From NCBI GenBank assembly GCA_944474755.1, contig OX104124.1, positions 42,733,342-42,797,341 on the forward strand: a stretch of DNA of 64,000 bases, written 5' to 3'. The notes below the pieces were generated by a model. It was not told the DNA's origin. It was given only the letters and a program-made list of their open reading frames with translations, and did no database searches. This stretch comes from Limnoperna fortunei. Taxonomy: Eukaryota; Mollusca; Bivalvia; Mytilida; Modiolidae. Numbering within the stretch: position 1 is the stretch's first letter; each line of letters starts with the position of its first letter. The translations under genes and the position numbers were made by a program. Positions 326 through 62,852 of the stretch are shown here, one piece after another.

Positions 326-432
326 AGTTTTATTTACAAAAGTGATACCGTTGTCACCATTATTGTTTATCTGGTTGCCATGGATCATTGGTTGACATGC
401 CGTGGTTACCCATACTCCACAACCAGAATTAC
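326..432 (-). CDS. FBXO10: FBXO10 coding exon 10 (beta-helix rungs)
   Basis: This 107-nt exon starts after acceptor TATTGTAG (434-433) and ends before donor GTAAGT (325-320). It contributes two bases that complete the Gly codon split with exon 9, then 35 codons (about residues 868-903). The reading NSGCGVWVTTACQPM continues to HGNQINNNGDNGITF, which lines up with the GCGVW...NGLYGVAVF stretch of vertebrate FBXO10, a parallel beta-helix rung with repeated Gly and Asn turns. Only this copy runs into the full exon. The 98 neighbours at 436-9577 carry just its first 49 bases. The exon is followed by an intron leaving the window. An upstream-shifted donor (GTAAAT after ...ITF) is possible but weaker. 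Confidence 0.9.
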
Positions 433-3400
433 CTACAATAATGTTAGAAGTGTTTAAACGGTTAAAAAGGTGTTTAATCATTGGTTGACATGCCGTGGTT
501 ACCCATACTCCACAACCAGAATTACCTACAATAATGATAGAAGTGTTTAAACGGTTAAAAAGGTGTTTAATCATTGGTTGACATGCCGTGGTTACCCATA
601 CTCCACAACCAGAATTACCTACAATAATGATAGAAGTGTTTAAACGGTTAAAAAGGTGTTTAATCATTGGTTGACATGCCGTGGTTAACCATACTCCACA
701 ACCAGAATTACCTACAATAATGATAGAAGTGTTTAAACGGTTAAAAAGGTGTTTAATCATTGGTTGACATGCCGTGGTTACCCATACTCCACAACCAGAA
801 TTACCTACAATAATGATAGAAGTGTTTAAACGGTTAAAAAGGTGTTTAATCATTGGTTGACATGCCGTGGTTACCCATACTCCACAACCAGAATTACCTA
901 CAATAATGAAGAAGTGTTTAAACGGTTAAAAAGGTGTTTAATCATTGGTTGACATGCCGTGGTTACCCATACTCTACAACCAGAATTACCTACAATAATG
1001 ATAGAAGTGTTTAAACGGTTAAAAAGGTGTTTAATCATTGGTTGACATGCCGTGGTTACCCATACTCCACAACCAGAATTACCTACAATAATGATAGAAG
1101 TGTTTAAACGGTTAAAAAGGTGTTTAATCATTGGTTGACATGCCGTGGTTAACCATACTCCACAACCAGAATTACCTACAATAATGATAGAAGTGTTTAA
1201 ACGGTTAAAAAGGTGTTTAATCATTGGTTGACATGCCGTGGTTACCCATACTCCACAACCAGAATTACCTACAATAATGATAGAAGTGTTTAAACGGTTA
1301 AAAAGGTGTTTAATCATTGGTTGACATGCCGTGGTTACCCATACTCCACAACCAGAATTACCTACAATAATGATAGAAGTGTTTAAACGGTTAAAAAGGT
1401 GTTTAATCATTGGTTGACATGCCGTGGTTAACCATACTCCACAACCAGAATTACCTACAATAATGATAGAAGTGTTTAAACGGTTAAAAAGGTGTTTAAT
1501 CATTGGTTGACATGCCGTGGTTACCCATACTCCACAACCAGAATTACCTACAATAATGATAGAAGTGTTTAAACGGTTAAAAAGGTGTTTAATCATTGGT
1601 TGACATGCCGTGGTTACCCATACTCCACAACCAGAATTACCTACAATAATGATAGAAGTGTTTAAACGGTTAAAAAGGTGTTTAATCATTGGTTGACATG
1701 CCTTGGTTAATCCATACTCCACAACCAGAATTACCTACAATAATGAAGAAGTGTTTAAACAGTTTAAAAGGTGTTTAATCATTGGTTGACATGCCGTGGT
1801 TACCCATACTCCACAACCAGAATTACCTACAATAATGAAGAAGTGTTTAAACGGTTAAAAAGGTGTTTAATCATTGGTTGACATGCCGTGGTTACCCATA
1901 CTCTACAACCAGAATTACCTACAATAATGATAGAAGTGTTTAAACGGTTAAAAAGGTGTTTAATCATTGGTTGACATGCCGTGGTTACCCATACTCCACA
2001 ACCAGAATTACCTACAATAATGAAGAAGTGTTTTAAACGGTTAAAAAGGTGTTTAATCATTGGTTGACATGCCGTGGTTACCCATACTCTACAACCAGAA
2101 TTACCTACAATAATGATAGAAGTGTTTAAACGGTTAAAAAGGTGTTTAATCATTGGTTGACATGCCGTGGTTACCCATACTCCACAACCAGAATTACCTA
2201 CAATAATGATAGAAGTGTTTAAACGGTTAAAAAGGTTTTTAATCATTGGTTGACATGCCGTGGTTAATCCATACTCCACAACCAGAATTACCTACAATAA
2301 TGATAGAAGTGTTTAAATGGTTAAAAAGGTGTTTAATCATTGGTTGACATGCCCTGGTTACCCATACTCCACAACCAGAATTACCTACAATAATGAAGAA
2401 GTGTTTAAACGGTTAAAAAGGTGTTTAATCATTGGTTGACATGCCGTGGTTACCCATACTCCACAACCAGAATTACCTACAATAATGATAGAAGTGTTTA
2501 AACGGTTAAAAAGGTTTTTAATCATTGGTTGACATGCCGTGGTTAATCCATACTCCACAACCAGAATTACCTACAATAATGATAGAAGTGTTTAAACGGT
2601 TAAAAAGGTGTTTAATCATTGGTTGACATGCCGTGGTTACCCATACTCCAGAACCAGAATTACCTACAATAATGATAGAAGTGTTTAAATGGTTAAAAAG
2701 GTGTTTAATCATTGGTTGACATGCCGTGGTTACCCATACTCCACAACCAGAATTACCTACAATAATGATAGAAGTGTTTAAACGGTTAAAAAGGTGTTTA
2801 ATCATTGGTTGACATGCCGTGGTTACCCATACTCCACAACCAGAATTACCTACAATAATGAAGAAGTGTTTAAACAGTTTAAAAGGTGTTTAATCATTGG
2901 TTGACATGCCGTGGTTACCCATACTCCACAACCAGAATTACCTACAATAATGATAGAAGTGTTTAAACAGTTTAAAAGGTGTTTAATCATTGGTTGACAT
3001 GCCGTGGTTACCCATACTCCACAACCAGAATTACCTACAATAATGATAGAAGTGTTTAAACGGTTAAAAAGGTGTTTAATCATTGGTTGACATGCCGTGG
3101 TTACCCATACTCCACAACCAGAATTACCTACAATAATGATAGAAGTGTTTAAACGGATAAAAAGGTGTTTAATCATTGGTTGACATGCCGTGGTTACCCA
3201 TACTCCACAACCAGAATTACCTACAATAATGAAGAAGTGTTTAAACGGTTAAAAAGGTCTTTAATCATTGGTTGACATGCTGTGGTTAATCCATACTCCA
3301 CAACCAGAATTACCTACAATAATGATAGAAGTGTTTAAACGGTTAAAAAGGTGTTTAATCATTGGTTGACATGCCGTGGTTACCCATACTCCACAACCAG

Positions 3401-6400
3401 AATTACCTACAATAATGAAGAAGTGTTTAAACGGTTAAAAAGGTGTTTAATCATTGGTTGACATGCCGTGGTTACCCATACTCCAGAACCAGAATTACCT
3501 ACAATAATGATAGAAGTGTTTAAACGGTTAAAAAGGTGTTTAATCATTGGTTGACATGCTGTGGTTAATCCATACTCCACAACCAGAATTACCTACAATA
3601 ATGATAGAAGTGTTTAAACGGTTAAAAAGGTGTTTAATCATTGGTTGACATGCCGTGGTTACCCATACTCCACAACCAGAATTACCTACAATAATGAAGA
3701 AGTGTTTAAACGGTTAAAAAGGTGTTTAATCATTGGTTGACATGCCGTGGTTACCCATACTCCACAACCAGAATTACCTACAATAATGATAGAAGTGTTT
3801 AAACGGTTAAAAAGGTGTTTAATCATTGGTTGACATGCCGTGGTTACCCATACTCCACAACCAGAATTACCTACAATAATGATAGAAGTGTTTAAACGGT
3901 TAAAAAGGTTTTTAATCATTGGTTGACATGCTGTGGTTAATCCATACTCCACAACCAGAATTACCTACAATAATGATAGAAGTGTTTAAATGGTTAAAAA
4001 GGTGTTTAATCATTGGTTGACATGCCCTGGTTACCCATACTCCACAACCAGAATTACCTACAATAATGAAGAAGTGTTTAAACGGTTAAAAAGGTGTTTA
4101 ATCATTGGTTGACATGCCGTGGTTACCCATACTCCACAACCAGAATTACCTACAATAATGATAGAAGTGTTTAAACGGTTAAAAAGGTTTTTAATCATTG
4201 GTTGACATGCCGTGGTTAATCCATACTCCACAACCAGAATTACCTACAATAATGATAGAAGTGTTTAAACGGTTAAAAAGGTGTTTAATCATTGGTTGAC
4301 ATGCCGTGGTTACCCATACTCCACAACCAGAATTACCTACAATAATGATAGAAGTGTTTAAATGGTTAAAAAGGTGTTTAATCATTGGTTGACATGCCGT
4401 GGTTACCCATACTCCAGAACCAGAATTACCTACAATAATGATAGAAGTGTTTAAACGGTTAAAAAGGTGTTTAATCATTGGTTGACATGCCGTGGTTACC
4501 CATACTCCACAACCAGAATTACCTACAATAATGATAGAAGTGTTTAAACGGTTAAAAAGGTTTTTAATCATTGGTTGACATGCCGTGGTTAATCCATACT
4601 CCACAACCAGAATTACCTACAATAATGATAGAAGTGTTTAAACGGTTAAAAAGGTGTTTAATCATTGGTTGACATGCCGTGGTTACCCATACTCCACAAC
4701 CAGAATTACCTACAATAATGATAGAAGTGTTTAAATGGTTAAAAAGGTGTTTAATCATTGGTTGACATGCCGTGGTTACCCATACTCCAGAACCAGAATT
4801 ACCTACAATAATGATAGAAGTGTTTAAACGGATAAAAAGGTGTTTAATCATTGGTTGACATGCCGTGGTTACCCATACTCCACAACCAGAATTACCTACA
4901 ATAATGAAGAAGTGTTTAAACGGTTAAAAAGGTGTTTAATCATTGGTTGACATGCTGTGGTTAATCCATACTCCACAACCAGAATTACCTACAATAATGA
5001 TAGAAGTGTTTAAACGGTTAAAAAGGTGTTTAATCATTGGTTGACATGCCGTGGTTACCCATACTCCACAACCAGAATTACCTACAATAATGAAGAAGTG
5101 TTTAAACGGTTAAAAAGGTGTTTAATCATTGGTTGACATGCCGTGGTTACCCATACTCCAGAACCAGAATTACCTACAATAATGATAGAAGTGTTTAAAC
5201 GGTTAAAAAGGTGTTTAATCATTGGTTGACATGCTGTGGTTAATCCATACTCCACAACCAGAATTACCTACAATAATGATAGAAATGTTTAAACGGTTAA
5301 AAAGGTGTTTAATCATTGGTTGACATGCCGTGGTTACCCATACTCCACAACCAGAATTACCTACAATAATGAAGAAGTGTTTAAACGGTTAAAAAGGTTT
5401 TTAATCATTGGTTGACATGCCGTGGTTAATCCATACTCCACAACCAGAATTACCTACAATAATGATAGAAGTGTTTAAACGGATAAAAAGGTGTTTAATC
5501 ATTGGTTGACATGCCGTGGTTACCCATACTCCACAACCAGAATTACCTACAATAATGAAGAAGTGTTTAAACGGTTAAAAAGGTGTTTAATCATTGGTTG
5601 ACATGCTGTGGTTAATCCATACTCCACAACCAGAATTACCTACAATAATGATAGAAGTGTTTAAACGGTTAAAAAGGTGTTTAATCATTGGTTGACATGC
5701 CGTGGTTACCCATACTCCACAACCAGAATTACCTACAATAATGAAGAAGTGTTTAAACGGTTAAAAAGGTGTTTAATCATTGGTTGACATGCCGTGGTTA
5801 CCCATACTCCAGAACCAGAATTACCTACAATAATGATAGAAGTGTTTAAACGGTTAAAAAGGTGTTTAATCATTGGTTGACATGCTGTGGTTAATCCATA
5901 CTCCACAACCAGAATTACCTACAATAATGATAGAAGTGTTTAAACGGTTAAAAAGTTTTTTAATCATTGGTTGACATGCCGTGGTTACCCATACTCCACA
6001 ACCAGAATTACCTACAATAATGAAGAAGTGTTTAAACGGTTAAAAAGGTGTTTAATCATTGGTTGACATGCCGTGGTTACCCATACTCCACAACCAGAAT
6101 TACCTACAATAATGATAGAAGTGTTTAAACGGTTAAAAAGGTGTTTAATCATTGGTTGACATGCCGTGGTTACCCATACTCCACAACCAGAATTACCTAC
6201 AATAATGATAGAAGTGTTTAAACAGTTTAAAAGGTGTTTAATCATTGGTTGACATGCCGTGGTTACCCATACTCCACAACCAGAATTACCTACAATAATG
6301 ATAGAAGTGTTTAAACGGTTAAAAAGGTGTTTAATCATTGGTTGACATGCCGTGGTTACCCATACTCCACAACCAGAATTACCTACAATAATGAAGAAGT

Positions 6401-9400
6401 GTTTAAACGGTTAAAAAGGTGTTTAATCATTGGTTGACATGCCGTGGTTACCCATACTCCAGAACCAGAATTACCTACAATAATGATAGAAGTGTTTAAA
6501 CGGTTAAAAAGGTGTTTAATCATTGGTTGACATGCTGTGGTTAATCCATACTCCACAACCAGAATTACCTACAATAATGATAGAAGTGTTTAAACGGTTA
6601 AAAAGGTGTTTAATCATTGGTTGACATGCCGTGGTTACCCATACTCCACAACCAGAATTACCTACAATAATGAAGAAGTGTTTAAACGGTTAAAAAGGTG
6701 TTTAATCATTGGTTGACATGCCGTGGTTACCCATACTCCACAACCAGAATTACCTACAATAATGATAGAAGTGTTTAAACGGTTTAAAAGGTGTTTAATC
6801 ATTGGTTGACATGCCGTGGTTACCCATACTCCACAACCAGAATTACCTACAATAATGATAGAAGTGTTTAAACAGTTTAAAAGGTGTTTAATCATTGGTT
6901 GACATGCCGTGGTTACCCATACTCCACAACCAGAATTACCTACAATAATGATAGAAGTGTTTAAACGGTTAAAAAGGTGTTTAATCATTGGTTGACATGC
7001 AGTGGTTACCCATACTCCACAACCAGAATTACCTACAATAATGATAGAAGTGTTTAAACGGTTAAAAAGGTTTTTAATCATTGGTTGACATGCCGTGGTT
7101 AATCCATACTCCACAACCAGAATTACCTACAATAATGATAGAAGTGTTTAAACGGATAAAAAGGTGTTTAATCATTGGTTGACATGCCGTGGTTACCCAT
7201 ACTCCACAACCAGAATTACCTACAATAATGAAGAAGTGTTTAAACGGTTAAAAAGGTGTTTAATCATTGGTTGACATGCTGTGGTTAATCCATACTCCAC
7301 AACCAGAATTACCTACAATAATGATAGAAGTGTTTAAACGGTTAAAAAGGTGTTTAATCATTGGTTGACATGCCGTGGTTACCCATACTCCACAACCAGA
7401 ATTACCTACAATAATGAAGAAGTGTTTAAACGGTTAAAAAGGTGTTTAATCATTGGTTGACATGCCGTGGTTACCCATACTCCAGAACCAGAATTACCTA
7501 CAATAATGATAGAAGTGTTTAAACGGTTAAAAAGGTGTTTAATCATTGGTTGACATGCTGTGGTTAATCCATACTCCACAACCAGAATTACCTACAATAA
7601 TGATAGAAGTGTTTAAACGGTTAAAAAGGTGTTTAATCATTGGTTGACATGCCGTGGTTACCCATACTCCACAACCAGAATTACCTACAATAATGAAGAA
7701 GTGTTTAAACGGTTAAAAAGGTGTTTAATCATTGGTTGACATGCCGTGGTTACCCATACTCCACAACCAGAATTACCTACAATAATGATAGAAGTGTTTA
7801 AACGGTTAAAAAGGTGTTTAATCATTGGTTGACATGCTGTGGTTAATCCATACTCCACAACCAGAATTACCTACAATAATGAAGAAGTGTTTAAACGGTT
7901 AAAAAGGTGTTTAATCATTGGTTGACATGCTGTGGTTACCCATACTCCACAACCAGAATTACCTACAATAATGATAGAAGTGTTTAAACGGTTAAAAAGG
8001 TGTTTAATCATTGGTTGACATGCCGTGGTTACCCATACTCCACAACCAGAATTACCTACAATAATGATAGAAGTGTTTAAACGGTTTAAAAAGGTGTTTA
8101 ATCATTGGTTGACATGCCGTGGTTACCCATACTCCACAACCAGAATTACCTACAATAATGATAGAAGTGTTTAATCATTGGTTGACATGCCGTGGTTACC
8201 CATACTCCACAACCAGAATTACCTACAATAATGATAGAAGTGTTTAAACGGTTTAAAAAGGTGTTTAATCATTGGTTGACATGCCGTGGTTACCCATACT
8301 CCACAACCAGAATTACCTACAATAATGATAGAAGTGTTTAAACGGTTTAAAAGGTGTTTAATCATTGGTTGACATGCCGTGGTTACCCATACTCCACAAC
8401 CAGAATTACCTACAATAATGATAGAAGTGTTTAAACGGTTAAAAAGGTGTTTAATCATTGGCTGACATGCCGTGGTTACCCATACTCCAGAACCAGAATT
8501 ACCTACAATAATGATAGAAGTGTTTAAACGGTTAAAAAGGTGTTTAATCATTGGTTGACATGCCGTGGTTACCCATACTCCACAACCAGAATTACCTACA
8601 ATAATGATAGAAGTGTTTAAACGGTTAAAAAGGTGTTTAATCATTGGTTGACATGCCGTGGTTACCCATACTCCACAACCAGAATTACCTACAATAATGA
8701 TAGGAGTGTTTAAATGGTTAAAAAGGTGTTTAATCATTGGTTGACATGCCGTGGTTACCCATACTCCACAACCAGAATTACCTACAATAATGATAGAAGT
8801 GTTTAAACGGTTAAAAAGGTGTTTAATCATTGGTTGACATGCCGTGGTTACCCATACTCCAGAACCAGAATTACCTACAATAATGATAGAAGTGTTTAAA
8901 TGGTTAAAAAGGTGTTTAATCATTGGTTGACATGCCGTGGTTACCCATACTCCAGAACCAGAATTACCTACAATAATGATAGAAGTGTTTAAACGGTTAA
9001 AAAGGTGTTTAATCATTGGTTGACATGCCGTGGTTACCCATACTCCAGAACCAGAATTACCTACAATAATGATAGAAGTGTTTAAACGGTTAAAAAGGTG
9101 TTTAATCATTGGTTGACATGCCGTGGTTACCCATACTCCACAACCAGAATTACCTACAATAATGATAGAAGTGTTTAAACGGTTAAAAAGGTGTTTAATC
9201 ATTGGTTGACATGCCGTGGTTACCCATACTCCACAACCAGAATTACCTACAATAATGATAGAAGTGTTTAAACGGTTAAAAAGGTGTTTAATCATTGGTT
9301 GACATGCCGTGGTTACCCATACTCCACAACCAGAATTACCTACAATAATGAAGAAGTGTTTAAACGGTTAAAAAGGTGTTTAATCATTGGTTGACATGCC

Positions 9401-9577
9401 GTGGTTACCCATACTCCACAACCAGAATTACCTACAATAATGATAGAAGTGTTTAAACGGTTAAAAAGGTGTTTAATCATTGGTTGACATGCCGTGGTTA
9501 CCCATACTCCACAACCAGAATTACCTACAATAATGATAGAAGTGTTTAAACGGTTTAAAAGGTGTTTAATGACACTT
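388..9577 (-). repeat. 93-bp tandem array, about 99 copies, built from the exon 10 splice acceptor
   Basis: Head-to-tail units of 93 bp fill 9.2 kb; the marker TTGGTTG recurs at 388, 481, 574 and so on to 9480. Read on the minus strand each unit is 44 nt of intron 9 end (TAAACACC...TATTGTAG, with a branch-point-like TTTTTAAC and a pyrimidine-rich tract) joined to the first 49 nt of exon 10 (through CCAATGAT). The lowest-coordinate copy continues into the real exon, so the array grew from this junction into the intron. Common variants are a 1-bp loss (AATGAAGAAG, 92 bp), a 1-bp gain (GGTTAATCC, 94 bp), CCAGAACC for CCACAACC, and one 73-bp unit (8105-8178) that lost 20 bp between its two GTGTTTAA copies. 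Because 93 is 31 codons, runs of standard units stay open; the 92/94-bp units break the frame. Confidence 0.97.
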
Positions 9578-10196: not shown

Positions 10197-10464
10197 GGTT
10201 TGTTTGTTTGAATGATGTTTAATAGTACTATTAGCTATTTTTCAGCTATATCATGTTGTCAAGTTTTTATTGGGGGAGGAAGCTGGAGTACCCAGAGAAA
10301 ACCCCGACCTTCAGTAGGAAAACTGGCAATCCTTGACAATTAAGATTGGAGTCACGTACACCCTGCCAGCAGTGAGACTTGAACCCGCAACCTCAGCGTT
10401 TACAGACCATGTGATCAATAGTAGACAAACTACCTTAACCACTTGGCCACCGAGTCCTCCTATT
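10197..10464 (-). mobile_element. tRNA-derived SINE
   Basis: Full-length copy in intron 9. On the minus strand it shows GGCCAAGTGGTTAAGGTAG (box A region), TGCGGGTTCAAGTCTCACT (box B region), ATTGTCAAGGATTGCCAG, and the 3' part with AGCTGAAAAAT and a TTTGTTTGTTTG-complement tail. It is a Pol III type head by sequence; a match to named bivalve SINEs such as RUDI would need a database search. Confidence 0.8.
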
Positions 10465-10754: not shown

Positions 10755-10758
10755 TTAA

Positions 10759-11810: not shown

Positions 11811-12070
11811 GTTTGTTTGACTATTGTTTAACGCCACTTTCAGCAATTTTTCAGCTATATCATGGCGTCCAGTTTTTTAATATGGGAGGAAGCCGGAGTA
11901 CCCGGAGAAAAACCCCGACCTGCAATGGGAAAACTGGCAATCCTTGTAAATTAAGATTGGAGTCGAGTGAATTCTGCTTGCAGTGAGTTTCGAACCCATA
12001 ACCTCAGTGTTGACAAACCGAGTGATCAATAGTAGATGAACTACCTTAACCACTCGGCCACCGAGGCCCT
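11811..12070 (-). mobile_element. tRNA-derived SINE
   Basis: A well-preserved copy. The minus strand shows GGGCCTCGGTGGCCGAGTGG then TTAAGGTAG, a box B-like GGGTTCGAAACTCAC, ATTTACAAGGATTGCCAG, the CGGGGTTTTTCTCCGGGTAC block and the AGCTGAAAAATTGCTGAAAG end. Confidence 0.85.
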
Positions 12071-12650: not shown

Positions 12651-12803
12651 CTGATATAACGTTATTTTCTATACTTCCTTTCCCCTTTTCACCAATCACC
12701 ACACCATCGGACAAACCATTACAGATGACATTTTGTACAATAACTGGGTCACCACCATGTCGTATGTCAACTCCTCCCCACTGGTTCTCCGATATAATGT
12801 TAT
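12651..12803 (-). CDS. FBXO10: FBXO10 coding exon 9 (beta-helix rungs)
   Basis: This 153-nt exon lies between acceptor ATATTTTAG and donor CAG|GTAAAT. It completes the codon split with exon 8, adds 50 codons (about residues 817-867) and leaves one base for exon 10. It reads ENQWGGVDIRHGGDP and then LSDGVVIGEKGKGSIENN, nearly the family sequence ENQWGGVDIRRGG...SDGVVVG. It forms two turns of the parallel beta-helix, with the Gly/Asn-rich corners typical of carbohydrate-binding and sugar-hydrolase (CASH) repeats. This is the most conserved exon in the window and the best single marker for FBXO10. Confidence 0.96.
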
Positions 12804-14179: not shown

Positions 14180-14250
14180 CAACTATATAGCCTGTACCGC
14201 CCTCATTGACTGCTATTCCGGCAGCTTTACCACTGTGTATGTGGTTCTTA
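14180..14250 (-). CDS. FBXO10: FBXO10 coding exon 8 (beta-helix rung)
   Basis: A small 71-nt exon, too short for ordinary ORF calling. Acceptor TTATTTCAG precedes it and GTT G|GTATGC ends it. The first base completes the Ser codon begun by exon 7, then comes KNHIHSGKAAGIAVNEGG, matching the family stretch GNHIFKGRAAGIAVNENG. It ends with one base of an Asp codon finished by exon 9. About residues 793-816. The phases on both sides agree, which is strong support despite the short length. Confidence 0.93.
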
Positions 14251-16100: not shown

Positions 16101-16121
16101 ATAATATTTTTTTTTCATGTA

Positions 16122-16540
16122 CATTAATCAATTACCTGACTACAGGGCTACCCCGGTACAGTATGTATACCATTAATCAATTACCTGACTACAGGGCTAC
16201 CCCGGTACATACATTAATCAATTACCTGACTACAGGGCTACCCCGGTACATATATTAATCAATTACCTGACTACAGGGCTACCCCGGTACATACATTAAT
16301 CAATTACCTGACTACAGGGCTACCCCGGTACATACATTAATCAATTACCTGACTACAGGGCTACCCCGGTACATACTTAATCAATTACCTGACTACAGGG
16401 CTACCCCGGTACATACATTAATCAATTACCTGACTACAGGGCTACCCCGGTACATACATTAATCAATTACCTGACTACAGGGCTACCCCGGTACATACAT
16501 TAATCAATTACCTGACTACAGGGCTTCCCCGGTACAGTAT
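16122..16540 (-). repeat. 41-bp tandem array, 10 copies, built from the exon 7 splice donor
   Basis: The marker TTACCTG recurs at 16132, 16181, 16222, 16263, 16304, 16345, 16385, 16426, 16467 and 16508, that is at 41 bp with one 40 and one 49. On the minus strand each unit is about 27 nt of exon 7 end (TGTACCGGGGTAGCCCTGTA then GTCAG) plus 14 nt of intron starting GTAATTG. The highest-coordinate copy belongs to the real exon and has GGAAGC where the others have GGTAGC. The copy farthest into the intron (16131-16171) carries extra exon sequence, GGTATACATACTG. Each copy is a complete donor context CAG|GTAATT. Confidence 0.96.
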
Positions 16541-16648
16541 GTATACTCCTGCTTCTTTGTTCTGATAAATCTCATTACTTTTTATATGACCACGCCCACT
16601 TCCTAAAACAACAACTCCTGACCTCTTACTGTGATGAATTCTATTACA
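16512..16648 (-). CDS. FBXO10: FBXO10 coding exon 7 (beta-helix rungs)
   Basis: This 137-nt exon follows acceptor TTTATTACAG and ends at GTC AG|GTAATT. It supplies 45 codons plus two bases (about residues 748-793). It reads NRIHHSKRSGVVVLGSGRG and continues through SNEIYQNKEAGVYILYRG, matching the family's NQIHHGLRSGIVVLGNGKG and NKEAGIYILYHGNPVV. These are two beta-helix turns. The last 25 or so bases and the donor are repeated nine more times downstream in the intron, so the spliceosome meets ten near-identical donors in a row. The first is in the right phase for exon 8. Confidence 0.95.
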
Positions 16649-18158: not shown

Positions 18159-18226
18159 CTGTACTATTGGGTCAGCATTCTTCCTTATGTCAATCCCTGC
18201 TTCACAGTTGGAGTGTATATCATTGC
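18159..18226 (-). CDS. FBXO10: FBXO10 coding exon 6 (beta-helix rung)
   Basis: A 68-nt exon with acceptor CATTGTAG and donor ACAG|GTTAGT. Two bases complete the Gly codon from exon 5, then 22 codons read NDIHSNCEAGIDIRKNADP and end in IVQ. This matches the family's NNIYHNAEAGVDIRKKSNP. About residues 725-747. It sits between exon 5 (ending VIAG) and exon 7 (starting CNRIHH) in the expected order. Its first 14 bases and acceptor have been tandemly copied upstream in the intron. Confidence 0.93.
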
Positions 18227-18427
18227 CTACAATGATACAGTTACAGTTAGTTCATATCATTCGTTGCCTACTATGATACAGTTACAGTTAGTTCATATCA
18301 TTCGTTGCCTACTATGATACAGTTACAGTTAGTTTATATCATTCGTTGCCTACTATGATACAGTTACAGTTAGTTTATATCATTCATTGCCTACAATGAT
18401 ACCGTTACAGTTAGTTCATATCAATGT
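18213..18427 (-). repeat. 41-bp tandem array, about 6 copies, built from the exon 6 splice acceptor
   Basis: The marker ATATCA occurs at 18217 (inside the exon), 18254, 18295, 18336, 18377 and 18418: one 37-bp step and then four of exactly 41. On the minus strand a unit has GAACTAACTGTAACTGTATC (containing a near-ideal branch-point motif ACTAAC), then ATAGTAG, then 14 exon-like bases GCAACGAATGATAT. The real exon copy lacks CGTT. Each unit is therefore a compact branch point plus acceptor plus exon start. Confidence 0.94.
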
Positions 18428-18518: not shown

Positions 18519-18783
18519 TCCTCATTGGCCCAGTGGTTAAGGTAGTTTGTCTACTATTGATCACGTGGTCTGTCAACACTGAAATTGCAGGTTCAATTCA
18601 CACTGCAGGCAGGGTGTACTCGACTCCAATCTTCATTGACAAGGATTGCCAGTTTTCCTACCGCAGGTCAGGGGTTTTCTCTAGGTACTCTGGGCTTCCT
18701 TTCCCAATAAAAAAATGGATGCCATGATATAGCGGAAAAATTGCTCAATGTGGTATTAAACACCATCAAACAAACAAACAAAC
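18519..18783 (+). mobile_element. tRNA-derived SINE
   Basis: Plus orientation: TTGGCCCAGTGGTTAAGGTA (box A region), GCAGGTTCAATTCACACTGC (box B region), TTGACAAGGATTGCCAG, TCAGGGGTTTTCTC, AATAAAAAAATGGATGCCAT, and a CAAACAAACAAAC tail. Confidence 0.85.
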
Positions 18784-21892: not shown

Positions 21893-21974
21893 CTGCAATT
21901 ACACCTGTGGCTGCCAGTCTCATGAATATCCCAGAGGTTCTACAATGGTGAATCTCATTCTTTAAAATCACAAC
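21893..21974 (-). CDS. FBXO10: FBXO10 coding exon 5 (beta-helix rung)
   Basis: An 82-nt exon with acceptor TTACATTTCAG and donor TTGCAG|GTAATT. It gives 27 codons plus one base (about residues 698-724): VVILKNEIHHCRTSGIFMRL then AATGVIAG. The family counterpart is IIMLRNDIYRCRASGIFLRL...GLIAG. It follows exon 4 in phase 0. A 31-bp minisatellite begins about 42 bp upstream of the acceptor, just outside the polypyrimidine tract. Confidence 0.95.
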
Positions 21975-22015: not shown

Positions 22016-23117
22016 TAGTCTGTTGGTTGAAAACTTGGTGGACAAATGGTCTGTGTGTTGAAAACTTGGTGGACAAGTGGTCAGTGTGTTGGAGGGCTTG
22101 GTGGACAAATGGTATGTGTGTTGGAGGGCTTGGTTGACAAATGGTATGATGGTTGGACACTTGGTGGACAAATGGTCTGTGGGTTGGAGGGCTTGGTTGA
22201 CAAATGGTCTGTTGGTTGAAAACTTGGTGGACAAATGGTCTGTTGGTTGAAAACTTGGTGGACAAATGGTCTGTTAATTGAAAACTTGGTGGACAAATGG
22301 TCTGTGGGTTGAAGGGCTTGGTGGCCTAATGGTCTGTTGGTTGAAAACGTGGTGGACAAACGGTCTGTGGGTTCGAGGGCTTGGTGGCCAAATGGTCTGT
22401 TGGCTTAAAACTTGGTGGCCAAATGGTCTGTGGGTTGGTGTGCTTGGTGGCCAAATGGTCTGTGTGCTGGAGAGCTTGGTTGACAAATGGTCTGATGGTT
22501 GAAAACTTGGTGGACAAATGGTCTGTGTGTTGAAAACTTTGTGGACAAATGGTCTGTGTGTTGGAGGGCTTGGTGGACAAATGGTCTGTGGGTTGGAGGC
22601 CTTGTGGGCAAATGGTCTGGTGGTTGAAAACTTGGTGGACAAATGGTCTGTGGGTTGGAGGGCTTGGTGGACAAATGGTCTGTTGGTTGAAAACTTGGTG
22701 GACAAATGGTCTGTGTGTTGAAAACTTGGTGGACAAGTGGTCTGTGTGTTGGAGGGCTTGGTGGACAAATGGTCTGTGTGTTGAAAACTTGGTGGACAAA
22801 TGGTCTGTGTGTTGGAGGGCTTGGTGGACAAATGGTCTGTGGGTTGGAGGCCTTGTGGGCAAATGGTCTGTTGGTTGAAAACTTGGTGGACAAATGGTCT
22901 GTGGGTTGGAGGGCTTGGTGGACAAATGGTCTGTTGATTGAAAACTTGGTGGACAAATGGTCTGTGTGTTGAAAACTTGGTGGACAAGTGGTCTGTGTGT
23001 TGGAGGGCTTGGTGGACAAATGGTCTGTGGGTTGGAGGCCTTGTGGGCAAATGGTCTGTTGGTTGAAAACTTGGTGGACAAATGGTCTGTGGGTTGGAGG
23101 GCTTGGTGGACAAATGG
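22016..23117. repeat. 31-bp minisatellite, about 35 copies, in intron 4
   Basis: Two unit types alternate, GAAAACTTGGTGGACAAATG and GGAGGGCTTGGTGGACAAAT, each followed by GTCTGTGTGTTG or GTCTGTTGGTTG. The period is 31 bp. Since 31 is not a multiple of 3 and the unit has no stops in several frames, both strands show long artificial ORFs in all frames. Blocks of several units recur (for example GGAGGCCTTGTGGGC at 22595, 22850 and 23035). Confidence 0.93.
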
Positions 23118-23462: not shown

Positions 23463-23830
23463 CCTTGAATTCTGAATACATCTGATGCCATAACCAACTG
23501 AATTAATATCACAGTTGGATATAACAGCATGAGCCTGGAGTCCAACCATCACAGCCCCTTTACTCTGTGTGATCCGACATCGGTGGATCATACATCCACG
23601 GACTTCATTCAAAACTTTCTTCATATCATTATCTTCAATGATTTTTATGTGTTCTGATTGGTTCTGACTGCAGATTGATTGCACGTCTGCTCCCAGGCTA
23701 ATGGATGATATAGACCTGGGCATCTGATGTTCTGGATAAGACAACATAATGACAGATTCTTCCTCGGAAGAGAAATCGTCTGTAGAGTAGGAAACATCTT
23801 CAATGTCAATGCTGCTGGTAGAACTACCAC
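23463..23830 (-). CDS. FBXO10: FBXO10 coding exon 4 (linker end and first beta-helix rungs)
   Basis: A 368-nt exon with acceptor TATATGTATAG and donor AAGG|GTAAGG. Two bases complete a Gly codon, then 122 codons (about residues 575-697). The first half is an acidic serine-rich linker (SYSTDDFSSEEESVIML). The second half, VLNEVRGCMIHRCRITQSKG and then SVGYGIRCIQNSR, matches the family's NSVQGCLIRKCLFRDGKGG...TYAVRCIHNSK and opens the main beta-helix. An alternative donor 6 nt further on is unlikely because exon 5 continues the conserved reading exactly. Confidence 0.94.
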
Positions 23831-27193: not shown

Positions 27194-28277
27194 CTGCAAC
27201 CTCATTAGAATTCACACTGTTGACAGAACCTGAGTCAAACTCATCAGAGTCTTCCTGATCAAACAAGCTGTCACTGCTTCCTGATAACTGTGATCTGTTT
27301 GACAAATTATCATTGTTTACATCATTGTTATTAGAATTGTGTGGGGTAGATCTTTCATCCTCAGGATGGTCCTGTAAATTATCCAGATTTTCATTGACAT
27401 AGGGGGCACATTGTTGTGAATTATTTACTTCATTTTGATTGTTTGAAGAAGAAACTGTTTCAAAATGTGATGATGAAGGTTCTTGTTTACTTGAGGTAGC
27501 ACTGTCTAATTTTGGTATAGAGTGGTCGTAGGAGTTATCTCCCATATGAGAACTCTTTGGTAATGATTCCTTTCCATTTGAATTATATGTGTCTGAAGTA
27601 TTAGTCGCTATACTACTGACATCTGCTGACTCTCTATTTTTTAGGTTTTGACCACTTGGATGAAATTCATATTCTAATTTTGGTAGCAGACTCGGAGTCA
27701 TTATATTGATAGATGGCAGATCACAGAGAACTGATGTTGGAATCGGTAAATGATCCAAAACATCAGAATTGATCACAGATTCAAAATGCAATGACCCATT
27801 TGAACTTTGGCCACAAATCCCATGATCCTCTGTTGTTACCATACTGGAAAATTTTCCTGAACTACAAAAACTTTTTCGTCTTTGATCATTGTCCCCTTGA
27901 TCTGTTGAAAATGTATATGACTTTTCCAATGTTTTCTGTCCAGATGTTAAAGCAGAAGATGTAGAATATGCAGATGTAGGGGCCACTTCCTGTTTCTGCT
28001 TACTGAAATTTTGTATGTTACAATTTTGTGCAATTCTATCCAGCAGACTATTGTAAGTCCAATTTCTCTCGTCCTTCGGATGACCTTCAATAGTGACAGC
28101 GGCCGTATCAGTCTGAGAAAATTCACAATTTTCAATTATACTGGCACTCAGGTGTTGGAATATAACAGTGGCATGTCTAAAGGTACAATATTTAATATGA
28201 CATGACCCTGGACTCTGTACATAGACCATACCATCTTCTAGTATACAGTTATCAACCTGGAGATACCCAAATCTAAC
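27194..28277 (-). CDS. FBXO10: FBXO10 coding exon 3 (conserved block and long linker)
   Basis: At 1084 nt this is the largest exon, from acceptor TTGTTTTCAG to donor TTGCAG|GTACCT. It carries 361 codons plus one base (about residues 214-575). The first 75 or so residues are conserved: VDNCILEDGMVYVQSPGSCH, KYCTFRHATVIFQHLSASI, ENCEFSQTDTAAVTIEGHP and WTYNSLLDRIAQN match the family's early beta-helix. The remaining 285 residues are Ser/Asn/Asp-rich and low in complexity (NSNNNDVNNDNLSN, DQEDSDEFDSGS). Vertebrate FBXO10 has an acidic linker at this point, but it is clearly shorter as I recall it. The linker is probably disordered and may carry phosphorylation sites. Confidence 0.95.
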
Positions 28278-30127: not shown

Positions 30128-30584
30128 CTTTAAGATAAAATTAGTGAACCATGGAGCCCTGAATACCAAATTACTGACTCGCCCTGTGAGACCAATTTGT
30201 TCAATACACACCACCAATATGATGCTTCCAAGCTCTCCTACTCCAATCAGTTCAAAGGGTATTTTTGAAGACATTTCAAACTGTTCGTCATATATCCCAG
30301 GATACACTTCAATTCTATCGTAATCATTAGCGACAGCCAGGGCACTTTTTAATGTACTATGTTCCATATCTCGACCAACTCTGATCACCTTACGGTCCTT
30401 TCTGCGTTTTAAGACATACAAGCAGTTAGTTGAAGGATCCGGCTCTTTTGAATATCGACTCCAAAATCGCAGTGACATTATTTGATCTTTGTAAGCTTGT
30501 CGCCATGACTGCGGTTCCGAGTCTGTGTTTAGTGGCCAGAATGGATGCTTCCAATCAGAGCATCTCAGGTAAAGCTCATGCCAT
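30128..30584 (-). CDS. FBXO10: FBXO10 coding exon 2 (after the F-box)
   Basis: A 457-nt exon with acceptor ATCATTTGTAG and donor TTAAAG|GTAATA. Its first base completes the Arg codon of the motif DSTRW, then 152 codons follow (about residues 61-213). Family landmarks in order are WHELYLRCSDWKHPFWPLN, DSEPQSWRQAYKDQ, RKDRKVIRVGRDMEHSTLKS, ALAVANDYDRIEVYPGIYDE and VSNLVFRAPWFTNFILK. These match vertebrate WRQLCLG...HPNWP, EPESWREAFK, SLYDRIVLFPGVYEE and NLVFTPAWF. It bridges the F-box and the beta-helix and includes its capping strand. Confidence 0.96.
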
Positions 30585-31445: not shown

Positions 31446-31627
31446 CTTGTGCTATCCAGACTTATAACCAGGTCACTCCATGTTTTACATACACAAGCTG
31501 ATCGACAAAGATCTTCTGCAGAAAGGTAGGAAAGTATAATTCTCCAGATCTCCCATGGTAACCCAGACTTATCACCTGGTAAAACTTTACTCCCATTCTC
31601 CGCCTTAAAACTGGGAGAAGACATCAT
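31446..31627 (-). CDS. FBXO10: FBXO10 coding exon 1 (F-box)
   Basis: The reading frame opens with two consecutive ATG codons (31627-31622) and runs to donor ACAAG|GTATGC at 31446: 60 codons plus two bases. After a short polar leader comes the F-box, about residues 20-60, with LPWEIWRIILSYLSAEDLC and CVCKTWSDLVISLDSTR; the family has LPLELWRMILAYLHLPDL and LVCRAWYELILSLDSTRW. The F-box binds SKP1 and so links the protein to CUL1 ubiquitin ligases. The exon extends upstream as 5' UTR to an acceptor TTATTTGTAG at 31649, so at least one untranslated exon must lie further right. A short upstream ATG-AGT-TGA sits in that leader. Confidence 0.95.
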
Positions 31628-39905: not shown

Positions 39906-39965
39906 AGTGTTGTAACGTTCTTGTGATTAAAAACATTAGCAGCGACCACACGTCAGATAACTAAC

Positions 39966-40658
39966 ATGGCGTATATACCAGTCTTGTGGAACCAAATGCA
40001 ACACGATGTTGACGACATGTTCCATCTCATGGACCCTTGGTTATACGGGGCACCTGTTCATTCTGTTTCAAGGAGAAGACCGCGGCGACACGAAACCTCA
40101 TTAGCTGACAAAAAATGGACGTTTGGTGTGAAGATAGGAGATTTTGATCCTGAGCACGTTAAAGTGAAAGTAGAAAATGGAAAAGTAGAGATAGTTGCAA
40201 AGTACCAGGAAGGAAATGAAGAATGGGGCGATACTGTGGAAAGACGAAGGATGGTGAAAATCCCGGAAAATGTCGACGCGGACAAAATTCACAGCGTTAT
40301 GAGGTCAGATGGCACACTGATGTTGGAAGCTCCTTACCGTGTATCAGAAGAACACACCCTCGCAGTAACTCCTCTTGAAGGGGGAGCTCTTGTCCCAACA
40401 GAGGGTAAATGCAACCTTATGAAGTTCTCCGTTGGAAATTTTAGCCCGAACGAAGTGAAAATATCATGCAAGGACGGCGTCTTGACTGCCCAAGGAAAAC
40501 ATCAGAGATCAGAGGACGGACACGAAATCCAAGAAACGTTCTTTCGTCAAATGACTATGCCAGATTCCGTTGATGTCGGCGATGTTGAATGCTTCATGGA
40601 CAAAGATGGTTTCATCACAATCCGTGCACCTACTGTAGGTGATGATGACGACATCTAA
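39966..40658 (+). CDS. Small heat-shock protein with two alpha-crystallin domains
   Basis: A complete, intronless 230-codon gene. The short N-terminus (MAYIPVLWNQMQHDVDDMFH) is Met/Trp/Phe-rich as in other HSP20 proteins. Domain 1, about residues 50-123, runs from KWTFGVKIGDFDPEHVKVKV through ERRRMVKIPENVDADKI to SDGTLMLEAPYR. Domain 2, about 150-222, has MKFSVGNFSPNEVKISCKDG, TFFRQMTMPDSVDV and MDKDGFITIRAP. The tail is acidic (GDDDDI) and lacks the usual IXI motif. Such proteins are ATP-independent chaperones that hold unfolded clients; one domain is the norm, and tandem-domain forms are known in flatworms and molluscs. TATA box and AATAAA fit a single-exon stress gene. It is unrelated to its repeat-rich neighbours. 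Confidence 0.95.
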   Translation: MAYIPVLWNQMQHDVDDMFHLMDPWLYGAPVHSVSRRRPRRHETSLADKKWTFGVKIGDFDPEHVKVKVENGKVEIVAKYQEGNEEWGDTVERRRMVKIPENVDADKIHSVMRSDGTLMLEAPYRVSEEHTLAVTPLEGGALVPTEGKCNLMKFSVGNFSPNEVKISCKDGVLTAQGKHQRSEDGHEIQETFFRQMTMPDSVDVGDVECFMDKDGFITIRAPTVGDDDDI

Positions 40659-51638: not shown

Positions 51639-51672
51639 GTTTTCTTCTATCCAAGCTTGGATAGAAGAAAAC
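51639..51672. repeat. Perfect 34-bp palindrome with no spacer
   Basis: GTTTTCTTCTATCCAAG followed directly by its inverse CTTGGATAGAAGAAAAC, centred on AAGCTT. Confidence 0.97.
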
Positions 51673-51769
51673 ATGATGTTGCATATTTAACTCGTATGTT
51701 TTGCTGGTTTCGAAAGGATTACGTGCCATTTGTTTACATCTGAGATACCTTTATTTATCGATGGTTACC

Positions 51770-55994: not shown

Positions 55995-56171
55995 TTTAAA
56001 TTGCACTGGAATAAACATATTGTTATAAAACAAGCAAGCTCTGATATAAAACTGGTTCCTGTTATGATTAGAAATAGATACTGGGAACAGTATATAAACC
56101 AAAGTTTGCGAAGTAATCAGATTTTGATATCTTTGGTAATATTTCGGCTTTGCATGATTGAATTACTTTTT

Positions 56172-58429: not shown

Positions 58430-58672
58430 TTCTCTCCCAATCAAAACTGGATGCCAGGGCTCACCACACTGGGCGAAGTGGGCGACAAAGTCGCCCCACT
58501 AGGACCTGAAGTCGCCCTAAGGCGCCTCAAAAGCGAAGTCGAAGTCGCCCTGTCATTTCCCTTAAGTCGCCCGATGGTTCGCATAAGATACTTGTAAATC
58601 CGATGCCATGATATATATTGAGCTGAAAAATTGCTGAAATTGGCGTTAATCAACATTCAGACAAACAAAGAA
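58430..58672 (+). mobile_element. SINE 3' part with a 150-bp insertion
   Basis: TCTCCCAATCAAAACTGGAT, then after the insertion CGATGCCATGATATATATTG and AGCTGAAAAATTGCTGAAAT. The insert (about 58455-58600) starts CAGGGCTCACCACACTGG, is rich in AAGTCGCCC words and is flanked by GATGC on both sides. Confidence 0.65.
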
Positions 58673-59989: not shown

Positions 59990-60310
59990 TGGCGGATAGG
60001 GGAGACCCTCTCGTTGGGGGGTTGTCAGGAAAGCCTGACGCGGACAGTAGTGGGTAACGTGTTTGGAGAGTGCCACGCTCCTTGCACGATAAAGATCCCT
60101 TTTGTAGATTTTGAAAAAATAGTAGGCTCATTGTAGCTGCTACAAAAGGCTAAATTTTCGGCCCTTACCCAAAACTCCATACTTTTCCAGTGGCAGTCAA
60201 AATTCTATTTGCTGTGACCCATCCCACCCCCATTTTCCGTTGATTTATTGTTTGTTTACTTGTTTCCGTCCTGAATATAGCTGAAATACAGCTCGCTGGA
60301 TGTAAAGCAT
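59990..60310 (+). mobile_element. Second SINE-like family
   Basis: TCCGGTGGCGGATAGGGGAG, CTCCTTGCACGATAAAGATC, CAGTGGCAGTCAAAATTC, GTGACCCATCCCACCC and GTTTACTTGTTTCCGTCCTG, ending ATATAGCTGAAATA. A shorter copy lies at 45068. The end resembles the AGCTGAAA end of the main SINE. Confidence 0.6.
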
Positions 60311-60499
60311 ACATCAATCATAGGGTTCAAAGTTGTTTCACATTTTGTTGATGTTGTTTTTGTAAAATACAGGTACATTATTTTTGTTATTAATTTTAAA
60401 TATTTTACTAATTCATTTTAGAAGGATTACCCAGGAAAATGTTTAATTAGGATGTTTACTTGTCATTTTGAGTTCTCGCTAAATAGTTAATTAAGTTAA

Positions 60500-61213
60500 T
60501 TGTCACACATGTTAATTTAGCACTTAAGTTTTATTAATTAAGTTTCTCAGATAAAGGTAAATTAATTTAATTTGGAATTTAAAATCAAATCCTCTATAAT
60601 CCTTTTGAATACATGTTCATTTGTCAGTTTTAATATTTTAGTATAAAAAGAGTTAGAAAATTGTAGAATGAGAGAAGTAGAAGAGTAGAAGATTACTATA
60701 CGAGATTAGTAGATAAGTACTGCTAGTAGAAAACAGTATTAGAGTTAGCCGCATACACAAGACTGTTAGTGAAACAGAGACGTCAACGGTGGAACCAAAA
60801 ACAGTTAGCACAACATCGCAGCTGGATGGTCAACTGGTTTTAATGGTATATGGTTACAAAGGACCTGCCGTCAGTCTACCAGTACCACACCTGACTTGGC
60901 TCATCTGAACACACAATACAGGAGAAGTGCTGACTCAACCGACAACTGCAGTATTTAGAGTGACATACAAATTCTTTAGGACATTTTATACACATTGACA
61001 ATTGATTTGTTTACATTTTGTGCTATTTCATTTTGAACTTGTTTTATTTTTGGCTATTTATTCTTTGTTAAATTAAATTGTTACAAATTTTGGTTGCTGA
61101 GTTATAGCTGTGCTTTGCCATATTTACGTCTAAGTTCTAGACTGACCCCCTGTTTGCTGAGGGCTATCGCATGCAGAGCTAATTCCCCATGGCTTATTCT
61201 GGCATGCAACCTG
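60500..61213 (+). mobile_element. Possible solo LTR
   Basis: The stretch starts TGTCACACATG and ends CTCTCGGTGACACA, with TATAAAAAG at 60642 in a promoter-like position. No convincing target duplication and no internal region were seen, so the call is tentative. Confidence 0.25.
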
Positions 61214-61867
61214 GCTCTCGGTGACACATCCAATCAATCAATTTAAGAAGTATTTGAAGATTACCTCCCTTGGTTAGCTATGGTTATACCTCTTAAATAT
61301 TAAATCTTGTAGCGCTTTTTCTCAACTTTTAGTTAATTTTACAAGTATAGCCATTTGCAAGACATTTGGTATATATTTATTTTATTAGAGTTATAAAATT
61401 AAGGTCAAGTTCTGTCTGATGTTTTTTTTAATCAAATCTGGTACATACAGTATTAAGTATGCCTTTTAATCCCCTGTTAATAATTTGGATGCACATATAC
61501 AAAATTATGTTTTATCACAAGTTAAAAGAAGAAAATCTGAAACCTTTGAATTGTCTTTAAATTCTGTGTTGAAACATTAATTATGTCATGAACTCGTGTT
61601 CCATTACAAATATCATTTTTCACTATATAATTATGTCCCACTTGTACGAATAATCATACCCTTGTTTTTTTATTTATATTTTTATCGTGAGGGTACGAAA
61701 CTCCCATTACCTGTAATAATTGAACACTCATGACACTTTAATGTCACAATGCAGTTGCATATACATGTATAATCAATCCAGTCTACTGTCAGAAAACTAC
61801 GTAGAAAAAAGCAAAAGTGCAAAAAACTGGTCCTTCATATACATAATGAAATGTTTTCGTTAATCAG
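61214..61867. other. Probable intron upstream of the 61.9-kb exon
   Basis: No element recognised. It ends with the acceptor-like GTTTTCGTTAATCAG at 61867. Confidence 0.4.
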
Positions 61868-61965
61868 GACAAACAGTAAAAACATGCTACCAAGGAGAAA
61901 ACCGTCATGACTGAGTCTTCTCCACAGAAAAGGGAAATCTTAGAAGAGAGACAGCAAGCCTTAAG
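61868..61965 (+). CDS. First coding exon of an unrecognised gene
   Basis: After the acceptor-like TTCGTTAATCAG comes a leader and an ATG at 61907. It encodes MTESSPQKREILEERQQAL and two more bases, then TTAAG|GTAGGA, a good donor in phase 2. Coding positions are 61907-61965. The peptide is polar, charged and probably helical (KREILEERQQAL), which fits the start of many coiled-coil or adaptor proteins; I cannot name it from 19 residues. Support comes from ATG plus donor plus the fact that the array that follows has copied exactly this donor, as happens in FBXO10. The rest of the gene should lie beyond 62.85 kb or outside the window. Confidence 0.55.
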
Positions 61966-62852
61966 GTAGGACGATTCCTTATTTATACCCCCTTCCTGGC
62001 CCTAGGGTAGGACGATTCCTTATTTATACCCCCTTCTTCGCCCTAGGGTAGGACGATTCCTTATTTATACCCCCTTCCTTGACCTAGGGTAGGACCATTT
62101 CTTTATACCCCTTCCTCGCCCTAGGGTAGGACCATTCCTTATTTATACCCCCTTCTTCGCCCTAGGGTAGGATGATTCCTTATTTATACCCCCTTCCTTG
62201 CCCTAGGGTAGGACCATTTCTTATTTATACCCCCTTCCTCGCCCTAGGGTAGGACGATTCCTTATTTATACCCCCTTCCTTGCCCTAGGGTAGGAGCATT
62301 TCTTATTTATACCCCCTTCCTCACCCTAGGGTAGGACCATTCCTTATTTATACCCCCTTCCTCGCCCTAGGGTAGGACCATTCCTTATTTATACCCGCTT
62401 CCTCGCCCTAGGGTAGGACCATTTCTTATTTATACCCCCTTCCTCGCCCTAGGGTAGGACCATTCCTTATTTATACCCCCTTCCTTGCCCTAGGGTAGGA
62501 CCATTCCTTATTCTTCCTTGTCCTAGGGTAGGGCCATTCCTTATTTATACCACCTTCCTCGCCCTAGGGTAAGACCATTCCTTATATATACCTTCTTCCT
62601 CGCCCTAGGGGAGGACGATTCCTTATTTATACCCCCTTCCTCGCCCTAGGGTAGGACGATTCCTTATTTATACCTCCTTCCTTGCCCTAGGGTAAGACCA
62701 TTCCTTATTTACACCCCCTTCCTCGCCCTAGGGTAGGACGATTCCTTATTTATACCTCCTTCCTTGCCCTAGGGTAGGGTCATTCCTTATTTATACCCCC
62801 TTCCTCGCCCTAGGGTAGGACCATTCCTCATTTATACCCCCTTCCTCGCCCA
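61958..62852 (+). repeat. 41-bp tandem array, about 21 copies, built from the 61.9-kb splice donor
   Basis: GGTAGG recurs at 61965, 62006 and 62047 and continues at about 41 bp. The first copy is the exon donor GCCTTAAG|GTAGGACG; later units have GCCCTAGG|GTAGGACG followed by ATTCCTTATTTATACCCCCT and TCCTC. So each unit keeps about 8 exon-end bases and 33 intron bases. A few units are shortened (62097, 62500). Confidence 0.93.

Follow-up and report, generated by a model that had tools for sequence, protein, structure and literature searches.

The DNA studied here is a window of 64,000 nucleotides from contig OX104124.1 of Limnoperna fortunei, and it raises the question of why several tandem arrays in it lie across exon-intron borders, and whether this position calls for a process that seeks out splice sites. 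The minus strand carries an FBXO10-like gene, for which a frame-consistent model gives 15 coding exons and 28 internal junctions (Table 1). The GT-AG borders and the phase of exon 10 match the neighboring exons, and the longer version of exon 11 is the one given by the reading frame and the protein of a relative (P0001). According to the model coordinates of exons 10, 7, and 6, three arrays run into exon ends. A fourth, with a 102-bp unit and eight donors found, lies at the donor of exon 12 just beyond the window.

Table 1. Exons and tandem arrays in the window (positions are those of the window; the basis of each feature is given in the last column).
Feature	Position	Strand	Basis and remarks
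FBXO10-like coding exon 1 (F-box)	31446..31627	-	gene model
FBXO10-like exon 2	30128..30584	-	gene model
FBXO10-like exon 3	27194..28277	-	gene model
FBXO10-like exon 4	23463..23830	-	gene model
FBXO10-like exon 5	21893..21974	-	gene model
FBXO10-like exon 6	18159..18226	-	gene model; first 4-8 bases belong to array
FBXO10-like exon 7	16512..16648	-	gene model; final ~25 bases belong to array
FBXO10-like exon 8	14180..14250	-	gene model
FBXO10-like exon 9	12651..12803	-	gene model
FBXO10-like exon 10 (107 nt)	326..432	-	borders, phase; 5' 49 bases belong to array
Exon 6 acceptor array	18223..18423	-	Tandem Repeats Finder; 41 bp, 5 copies with AG followed by GCAA
Exon 7 donor array	16120..16536	-	Tandem Repeats Finder; 41 bp, 10 copies
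Exon 10 acceptor array	384..9570	-	Tandem Repeats Finder; 93 bp, 99 copies
Short ORF with donor-like end, putative	61907..61965	+	unverified; codon score
41-bp array, 22 copies	61958..62851	+	Tandem Repeats Finder; starts 8 bases before putative donor

At all four FBXO10 junctions (exons 6, 7, 10, and 12), the repeat unit spans the exon-intron border. The exon 10 unit joins the end of the intron, its AG, and the start of the exon, with TAG followed by GTAATTCTGG in 99 copies, and the exon 7 unit joins the end of the exon to GTAATT, giving 10 donors. At either end, the exon 12 unit resembles a splice border. Inner units are alike within the arrays, and the distal copy of the exon 7 array differs in seam and spacing; the exon 7 unit pattern has seven matches in the genome, every one of them inside this array. 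The first-pass annotation assigned a full splice-site module to every unit; junction arrays with a splice site in nearly every unit are real and recur in unrelated genes. A 63/94-bp array (22018-23117) ends 44 bp upstream of the exon 5 acceptor, without overlap.

The FBXO10 reading frame closes when the outermost array copies are used. In our alignment, the relative's protein P0001, whose coding source is an apparently spliced contig of 1,120 bases, reads straight on through exons 9, 10, and 11 without an insert. Mytilus coruscus FBXO10 (P0060) likewise runs across the exon 5/6 border, and the homologues compared are free of insertions at the junctions of exons 6, 7, and 10. At exon 7, where a TAA is met at once beyond the donor and 41-bp steps shift the frame, the frame favors use of the upstream-most donor. 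From the conserved frame and the insert-free protein of the relative, we infer that normal splicing probably uses the outermost copies in this species. It might instead be proposed that some copies are used, alternative splicing adding in-frame units to the FBXO10 beta-helix (31 residues from exon 10; 34, or 26 as a cassette, from exon 12). Both 93 and 102 are divisible by three, the exon 12 unit has splice-border-like ends, and the exon's frame stays open through five extra copies of the 31-codon unit at exon 10 (200 codons in total) and two further full copies at exon 12. However, repeats of 31 or 34 amino acids are absent from P0001 in the alignment, and the exon 10 array, taken over its full length, is interrupted by stops, its longest open run over the three frames being 382 codons. 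Nor is there a consistent advantage of exon-derived over intron-derived halves, which are kept at 0.989 vs 0.982 (exon 10) and 0.967 vs 0.990 (exon 12). We regard such use of the copies as very improbable.

An array beginning at a donor at 61965, in another gene, had also been counted, making four such borders in the window. The borders of exons 10, 6, and 7 are upheld by the FBXO10 model and homologues, but the donor at 61965 ends a 19-codon ORF for which no homologue was found. The codon score of this ORF (61907-61965) exceeds that of 97% of random open 60-nt stretches. Inspection by eye of the ORFs in the 30 kb downstream, to identify its gene, recognized none, and a search giving lower bounds found the unit of the adjoining array nowhere else.

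Arrays at splice junctions are real and of a known kind, already described in lancelets and in two human genes (F7 and CBS). The amphioxus "mirage" minisatellites occur in Adh3, the globins BflGb6 and BflGb9, troponin C, and PGBD5, with units of 10-160 bp; in these reports they were suggested as an origin of new introns, the data suggest that splicing is undisturbed, and one globin array has six and three units in two haplotypes (PMC3087553; PMC3902484). As in those arrays, the unit here spans the exon-intron border, and splice signals are repeated at donors as well as acceptors; unlike them, the present arrays belong to the mollusc phylum, reach 99 copies and 9.2 kb, include four within one gene, and are known from the DNA of one assembly. 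In intron 7 of human F7, where 37-bp repeats carry donors, normally just the most upstream one is reported to be used (PMC6627357), although this is a single locus with experimental work, and its sequence and unit length differ from ours. The 31-bp VNTR of human CBS, c.1444_1467+7(16_21), likewise lies over a donor, its coordinates giving a unit with 24 bases from the exon and 7 from the intron; in the 844ins68 variant of the same gene, a 68-bp insertion is reported to duplicate a splice border, the distal copy being used (PMC2630376). Both are human polymorphisms, and 844ins68 is a single duplication, unlike the present arrays. One lancelet draft array was apparently assembled aberrantly (PMC3087553), which might suggest an assembly artefact here too. 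We find this scarcely credible: point changes and small indels distinguish the copies, and divergence varies among arrays (mean kept 0.86-0.99).

We consider it likely that the arrays are minisatellites of this mirage type, arising where a genome rich in minisatellites undergoes ordinary tandem duplication and filtered by splicing with the outermost copy. Tandem duplications would by chance sometimes cover an exon-intron border, and slippage or unequal exchange would later multiply the duplicated unit. The gene would keep working, splicing taking only the outermost copy (at a donor the first, at an acceptor the last), which is still continuous with the remainder of the exon, and all other copies, exon-derived halves included, would become neutral intron DNA with many decoy splice sites. 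Because arrays lying wholly within exons would modify the encoded protein and vanish, whereas those at borders can be spliced out, the survivors that touch exons would be expected at borders. Their position "always at the border," previously read as a possible sign of a process recognizing AG- or GT-bearing DNA, would then require no border-recognizing process, the loss of interior arrays being sufficient. The lancelet phenomenon is extended here to a mollusc genome, which suggests that other genomes dense in minisatellites may commonly show it.

The same anatomy recurs in unrelated genes on other chromosomes. A kinesin donor has an array of at least 17 copies of a 94-bp unit, an arylsulfatase B-like gene has donor arrays of 73 and 31 bp at exons 1 and 3, and one probable donor has a 38-bp array; the unit spans the exon-intron border in the kinesin and in both arylsulfatase exons. 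The frame of sulfatase exon 1 matched Pfam when joined to exon 2 and found nothing there alone, and the probable exon in L015 had no meaningful Pfam match. Two acceptor and five donor arrays in total have homology support, and two donor arrays are without it. Such copies are a trap for annotation, in that gene prediction may report spurious duplicates of exons.

An alternative is that splice junctions, or transcription through them (for instance by R-loops or stalled forks), seed duplication, with arrays starting at borders several-fold more often than elsewhere. The window holds 13 arrays with a score of at least 100 and a period of at least 20 in Tandem Repeats Finder, three of them verified at junctions, and not the four of about seven first reported. 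In the FBXO10 region, 4/13 arrays straddle a junction where random founder placement predicts 0.59 (P 0.0018), although this region was chosen after the fact, having drawn attention by its arrays. Random sequence (200 kb) has 3/22 arrays that straddle junctions (one just probable) against 0.5-1.0 expected, an expectation that rests on assumed junction densities. These figures make a few-fold border preference possible, and the two arrays within one sulfatase gene point the same way. Against seeding, the junction-based kinesin sample (31 exon matches, ~62 junctions) has one straddler where 0.54 is expected, and unit lengths and seams have no common feature. Arrays occupy 7% of the random 200 kb; at this density and the mean unit length, about 1/115 junctions would be straddled by chance. 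Case numbers outside the window, from samples chosen irrespective of arrays, fit chance or a modest, few-fold excess. Seeding by splice junctions seems to us unlikely, and we set no greater store by its widest form, in which exon borders, made fragile by transcription or splicing, duplicate in tandem several-fold more than other DNA, together with a regional 41-bp preference and in-frame beta-helix units. If this widest form were true, decoy splice sites, new introns, and protein repeats would continually arise from borders. Whether borders are preferred can now be counted directly.

A common mechanism had also been read from an exact 41-bp step and a 14/27 split of the unit. The step is not exact: the exon 7 array includes one spacing of 40 and a last one of 49 with a different seam, and the array at 61958 includes steps of 37, 74, and 82, of which 74 and 82 may be missed anchors or inserts. 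The 14/27 split varies with the point chosen to divide the units, since exon coordinates give other proportions (~25 exonic and 16 intronic bases at exon 7; 4-8 exonic bases at exon 6). With the array at 61958 excluded, the eight verified or probable cases have units of 31, 38, 41, 41, 73, 93, 94, and 102 bp, so that 41 is no marker of junction arrays, and a shared mechanism signed by it finds no support. There is nevertheless a regional run: among arrays with a period of 25-60, period 41 was found in 7/21 from the 114 kb around the window vs 0/22 from the random sequence and the kinesin loci (Fisher P 0.004), or 4/18 (P 0.03) without the three arrays noted earlier, and random duplication does not explain it. 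Two of the seven lie over verified junctions, one lies over an unverified junction, and one ends 11 bp before the exon 15 acceptor of FBXO10, so that four touch a splice site or come within 11 bp of one, which might suggest a real regional or enzymatic preference common to unrelated arrays. On the other side, no known junction is found at three of them, two comprise just 2.0-2.8 copies, one consists of a 20+21 dimer, the exon 7 array itself includes the 49-bp unit, and the period is absent from the random 200 kb and from the kinesin loci. We judge such a preference quite improbable. The units are unrelated in sequence; 21 pairwise tests gave no convincing kinship (lowest shuffle P 0.005).

The arrays had further been proposed as raw material for intron gain. 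Gain by tandem duplication is described in the Rogers AGGT model, for 24-bp repeats in fission yeast, and for potato RdRp, where the duplication spans an intron-exon boundary (PMC4974935), and as in these models tandem duplication here multiplies AG and GT signals. Unlike them, the present units copy an existing border. The proposal agrees with what has been published on lancelet mirages (PMC3087553), but no new intron was seen within a former exon here, and homologous proteins cross the FBXO10 array borders without insertion. The arrays may serve as natural experiments on the step from junction duplication to intron gain and on splice-site choice, at the extreme the choice of a single acceptor from 99 near-identical copies. 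The two most diverged arrays kept the 5' and 3' sides of the junction at 0.879/0.883 and 0.869/0.849, and among nine aligned arrays decoy GT and AG were kept about equally to other positions; both halves of the extra copies drift like intron DNA.

The window covers C14:42,733,342-42,797,341 in the 1.335-Gb assembly searched. The FBXO10-like gene was modelled on the minus strand as 14 coding exons with AG/GT borders, which together read as a single open frame 1,124 codons long. Exon 14 can splice to a 15th exon in the flank, the end of which matches the C-terminus of a Pinctada protein, and the gene has 28 internal junctions with exon 15 counted (the 1,124-codon frame covers exons 1-14). The protein contains an F-box and a right-handed beta-helix (Pfam, 903 residues scanned), and the homologue closest by percentage comes from Mytilus coruscus (94% identity across 11% of the query length), which suggests a bivalve, probably a mytilid. 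The phases agree at all modelled borders. Exons 9/10/11/12/13 are contiguous and insert-free in P0001, a relative's protein encoded on a 1,120-base contig, the exon 5/6 border is crossed by P0060, the M. coruscus FBXO10, and the exon 7/8 border by the Lottia and Lymnaea proteins.

Arrays that repeat the splice site itself, as the first-pass annotation had claimed for the acceptors of exons 10 and 6 and the donor of exon 7, were verified at all three borders, where phases and homologues back the junctions; a fourth lies at the exon 12 donor, and two further arrays stop short of acceptors (see table). The search pattern for the exon 10 copies included TAG, and an independent wrap-around alignment gave 99.0 copies with the AG kept in all. 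Splicing at an inner copy of the exon 6 or exon 7 border would move the frame by 41 bases, and read-through of the exon 7 donor runs straight into a TAA. An inner acceptor at exon 10 would add 31 residues in frame, in which five extra copies are open; no such insert was found in P0001.

Junction arrays and other features (window positions; negative values lie in the flanking locus L008)
Feature	Position	Copies	Spacing in bp, or remark
Exon 10 acceptor array	384-9570	99	93 (65x), 92 (17x), 94 (15x), 73 (1x)
Exon 7 donor array	16120-16536	10	41 (7x), 40 (1x), 49 (1x)
Exon 6 acceptor array	18223-18423	5	41
Exon 12 donor array	-1992 to -1121 (L008 8008-8879)	8 donors found	102, one 109
Array before exon 5 acceptor			ends 44 bp before acceptor, not crossed
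Array before exon 15 acceptor			ends 11 bp before acceptor, not crossed
Array at putative donor 61965 (+)	61958-62851		41
Open frame ending at donor-like site	61907-61965		19 codons
Single open frame, + strand	39927-40658		243 codons
tRNA-like or SINE-like element	18520-18780, 11820-12070, 10260-10460, elsewhere	several	both orientations
Reverse-transcriptase-like open frame	about -2184 to -3179 (L008)		in FBXO10 intron
Kinesin-exon matches	G000:C15:10214256-10313772	34, and 1 to next exon	steps about 1.9 kb and more

In the exon 10 array, a 279-bp (3 x 93) row outscores the 93-bp row, which may reflect a higher-order structure or the mere bridging of the one 73-bp step. In the exon 12 unit, the donor and an acceptor-like end (TTATACAG) enclose 78 bases; these make 26 in-frame codons, roughly as long as one coil of the beta-helix, and would provide a ready cassette exon were they ever used.

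Junction arrays were also found in other genes. Among 31 of the 126 matches to the kinesin family that were read (20 stretches with 25 matches, then 6 more, all outside the repeated cluster at C15:10.2-10.3 Mb), one exon, on contig C5 (Pfam kinesin, E 2.9e-29), ends in a 94-bp array whose unit takes about 63 bases from the exon and 31 from the intron, with at least 17 donors spaced exactly 94 bp apart; the array continues off the stretch, and the junction is known from the exon side alone. A random sample of 20 stretches of 10 kb held 22 arrays of score >=100, covering 7.3% of the sequence, and its junction cases are a lower bound, with 96 reading frames beside arrays judged by eye. Stretch L019 contains a gene that resembles arylsulfatase B (Pfam Sulfatase, E 1.3e-13; N-acetylgalactosamine-4-sulfatase 1fsu, E 2.2e-27, aligned without gaps over the exon 1/2 border). 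It carries a 73-bp array at the donor of exon 1; at the donor of exon 3, a junction known from the exon 3 side alone, lies a 31-bp array with about 40 units. In stretch L015, a plausible exon, for which no family match was found, has a 38-bp array that begins at its donor.

Under null models that are all without selection, 4 of the 13 FBXO10 arrays straddle junctions where random founder placement expects 0.59 (P 0.0018, 200,000 simulations), a value qualified by the region having been singled out beforehand for its junction arrays. For the random stretches, 0.52, 0.78, and 1.04 straddlers are expected at an assumed 0.3, 0.45, and 0.6 junctions per kb; the three observed, including the probable L015 case, give P 0.016, 0.044, and 0.087, and the two without it, both of which belong to the one L019 gene, give 0.096, 0.18, and 0.28. 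The kinesin exons show one straddler vs 0.54 expected (about 1 junction in 115; P 0.42). Together these counts fit chance or a few-fold border preference alike.

Most likely, random tandem duplication sometimes covers an exon-intron border, and the duplicated unit would then be amplified into an array in which the outermost copy is spliced and the inner copies drift as intron sequence. An array within a coding exon would make the protein longer or change its frame, and selection would eliminate it; therefore, the placement "always at the border" emphasized in the first-pass annotation would be a survivor effect. Seams with both original edges visible share, in our reading, 0-6 bases (exon 10, 2; the 49-bp seam of exon 7, about none; exon 6, up to 6; sulfatase exon 1, up to 4), as expected for ordinary tandem duplication. 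In nine arrays, the putative 61958 case included, each aligned to its own unit, there was no sign of protected extra exon halves or purged decoy splice sites, because the splice dinucleotides are kept about like other positions (whose mean conservation is 0.86-0.99) and, in the two most diverged arrays, those of sulfatase exons 1 and 3, both sides of the junction are kept alike (5'/3', 0.879/0.883 and 0.869/0.849). The dinucleotide is intact in every copy of five of the nine arrays (exons 10, 12, and 7; kinesin; L015) and is kept base-wise at 1.00/0.83 in exon 6, 0.88/1.00 and 0.85/0.93 in sulfatase exons 1 and 3, and 1.00/0.95 in 61958.

Border-spanning minisatellites are already known as a kind, and the mussel cases are further instances. 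Such "mirages," named from amphioxus Adh3, are described also in globin, troponin C, and PGBD5 genes, with splice signals in many units and variable array length; the data are said to suggest undisturbed splicing, and mirages were put forward as an intron source (PMC3087553, PMC3902484). The mussel arrays share this kind with those of amphioxus but stand out by how large they are and by the occurrence of four in a single gene; no mollusc example was found in the open-licence literature by a search that was mollusc-specific in small part only. In human F7, the most upstream repeated donor alone is described as normally used (PMC6627357), which by analogy would support the outermost-copy rule for donors.

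A 41-bp period does not mark junction arrays, whose unit lengths span 31 to 102 bp, and of the three exact 41-bp steps proposed earlier, that of exon 6 stood, that of exon 7 is mixed with 40 and 49, and that of the 61958 array with 37, 74, and 82, the latter two perhaps from missed anchors or inserts. Among arrays of period 25-60, period 41 accounts for 7/21 across 114 kb centred on the window region vs 0/22 in the random stretches and kinesin loci (Fisher P 0.004), or 4/18 without the three first proposed (P 0.03). Two of the seven straddle verified junctions, one the putative 61965 donor, and one ends 11 bp before the exon 15 acceptor. Despite this regional enrichment and the four arrays that lie at a splice site or no more than 11 bp from one (one of these sites putative), we consider it very improbable that a real regional or enzymatic preference common to unrelated arrays set the step: three of the seven lie at no known junction, two reach only 2.0-2.8 copies, one consists of a 20+21 dimer, and a 49-bp unit with a different seam also occurs in the exon 7 array. 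No kinship was found among the 41-bp units.

The donor at 61965, assigned earlier to another gene, is retained as a putative site: the 41-bp array does begin 8 bases before a donor-like end, and no homologue of the putative exon's open frame was found. The frame's codon score exceeds that of 97% of random open stretches (score trained on FBXO10 coding sequence only), which may lend weak support to the exon. A 124-base piece of the array has at least nine genome matches, all inside this array, and the unit thus looks local to it.

Other elements were noted by eye. The 243-codon frame looks like that of a small heat-shock protein bearing a pair of alpha-crystallin domains, the tRNA-like or SINE-like copies are of the 'ggtggccgagtggttaaggtag...'-like type, and the intronic frame in L008 resembles the reverse-transcriptase end of a non-LTR retrotransposon. 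The C15 matches, of which 34 cover one kinesin exon from profile position 222 mostly up to 292, run along the minus strand through the first half of the region and along the plus strand through the second; the region would be a large exon-bearing satellite or gene cluster.
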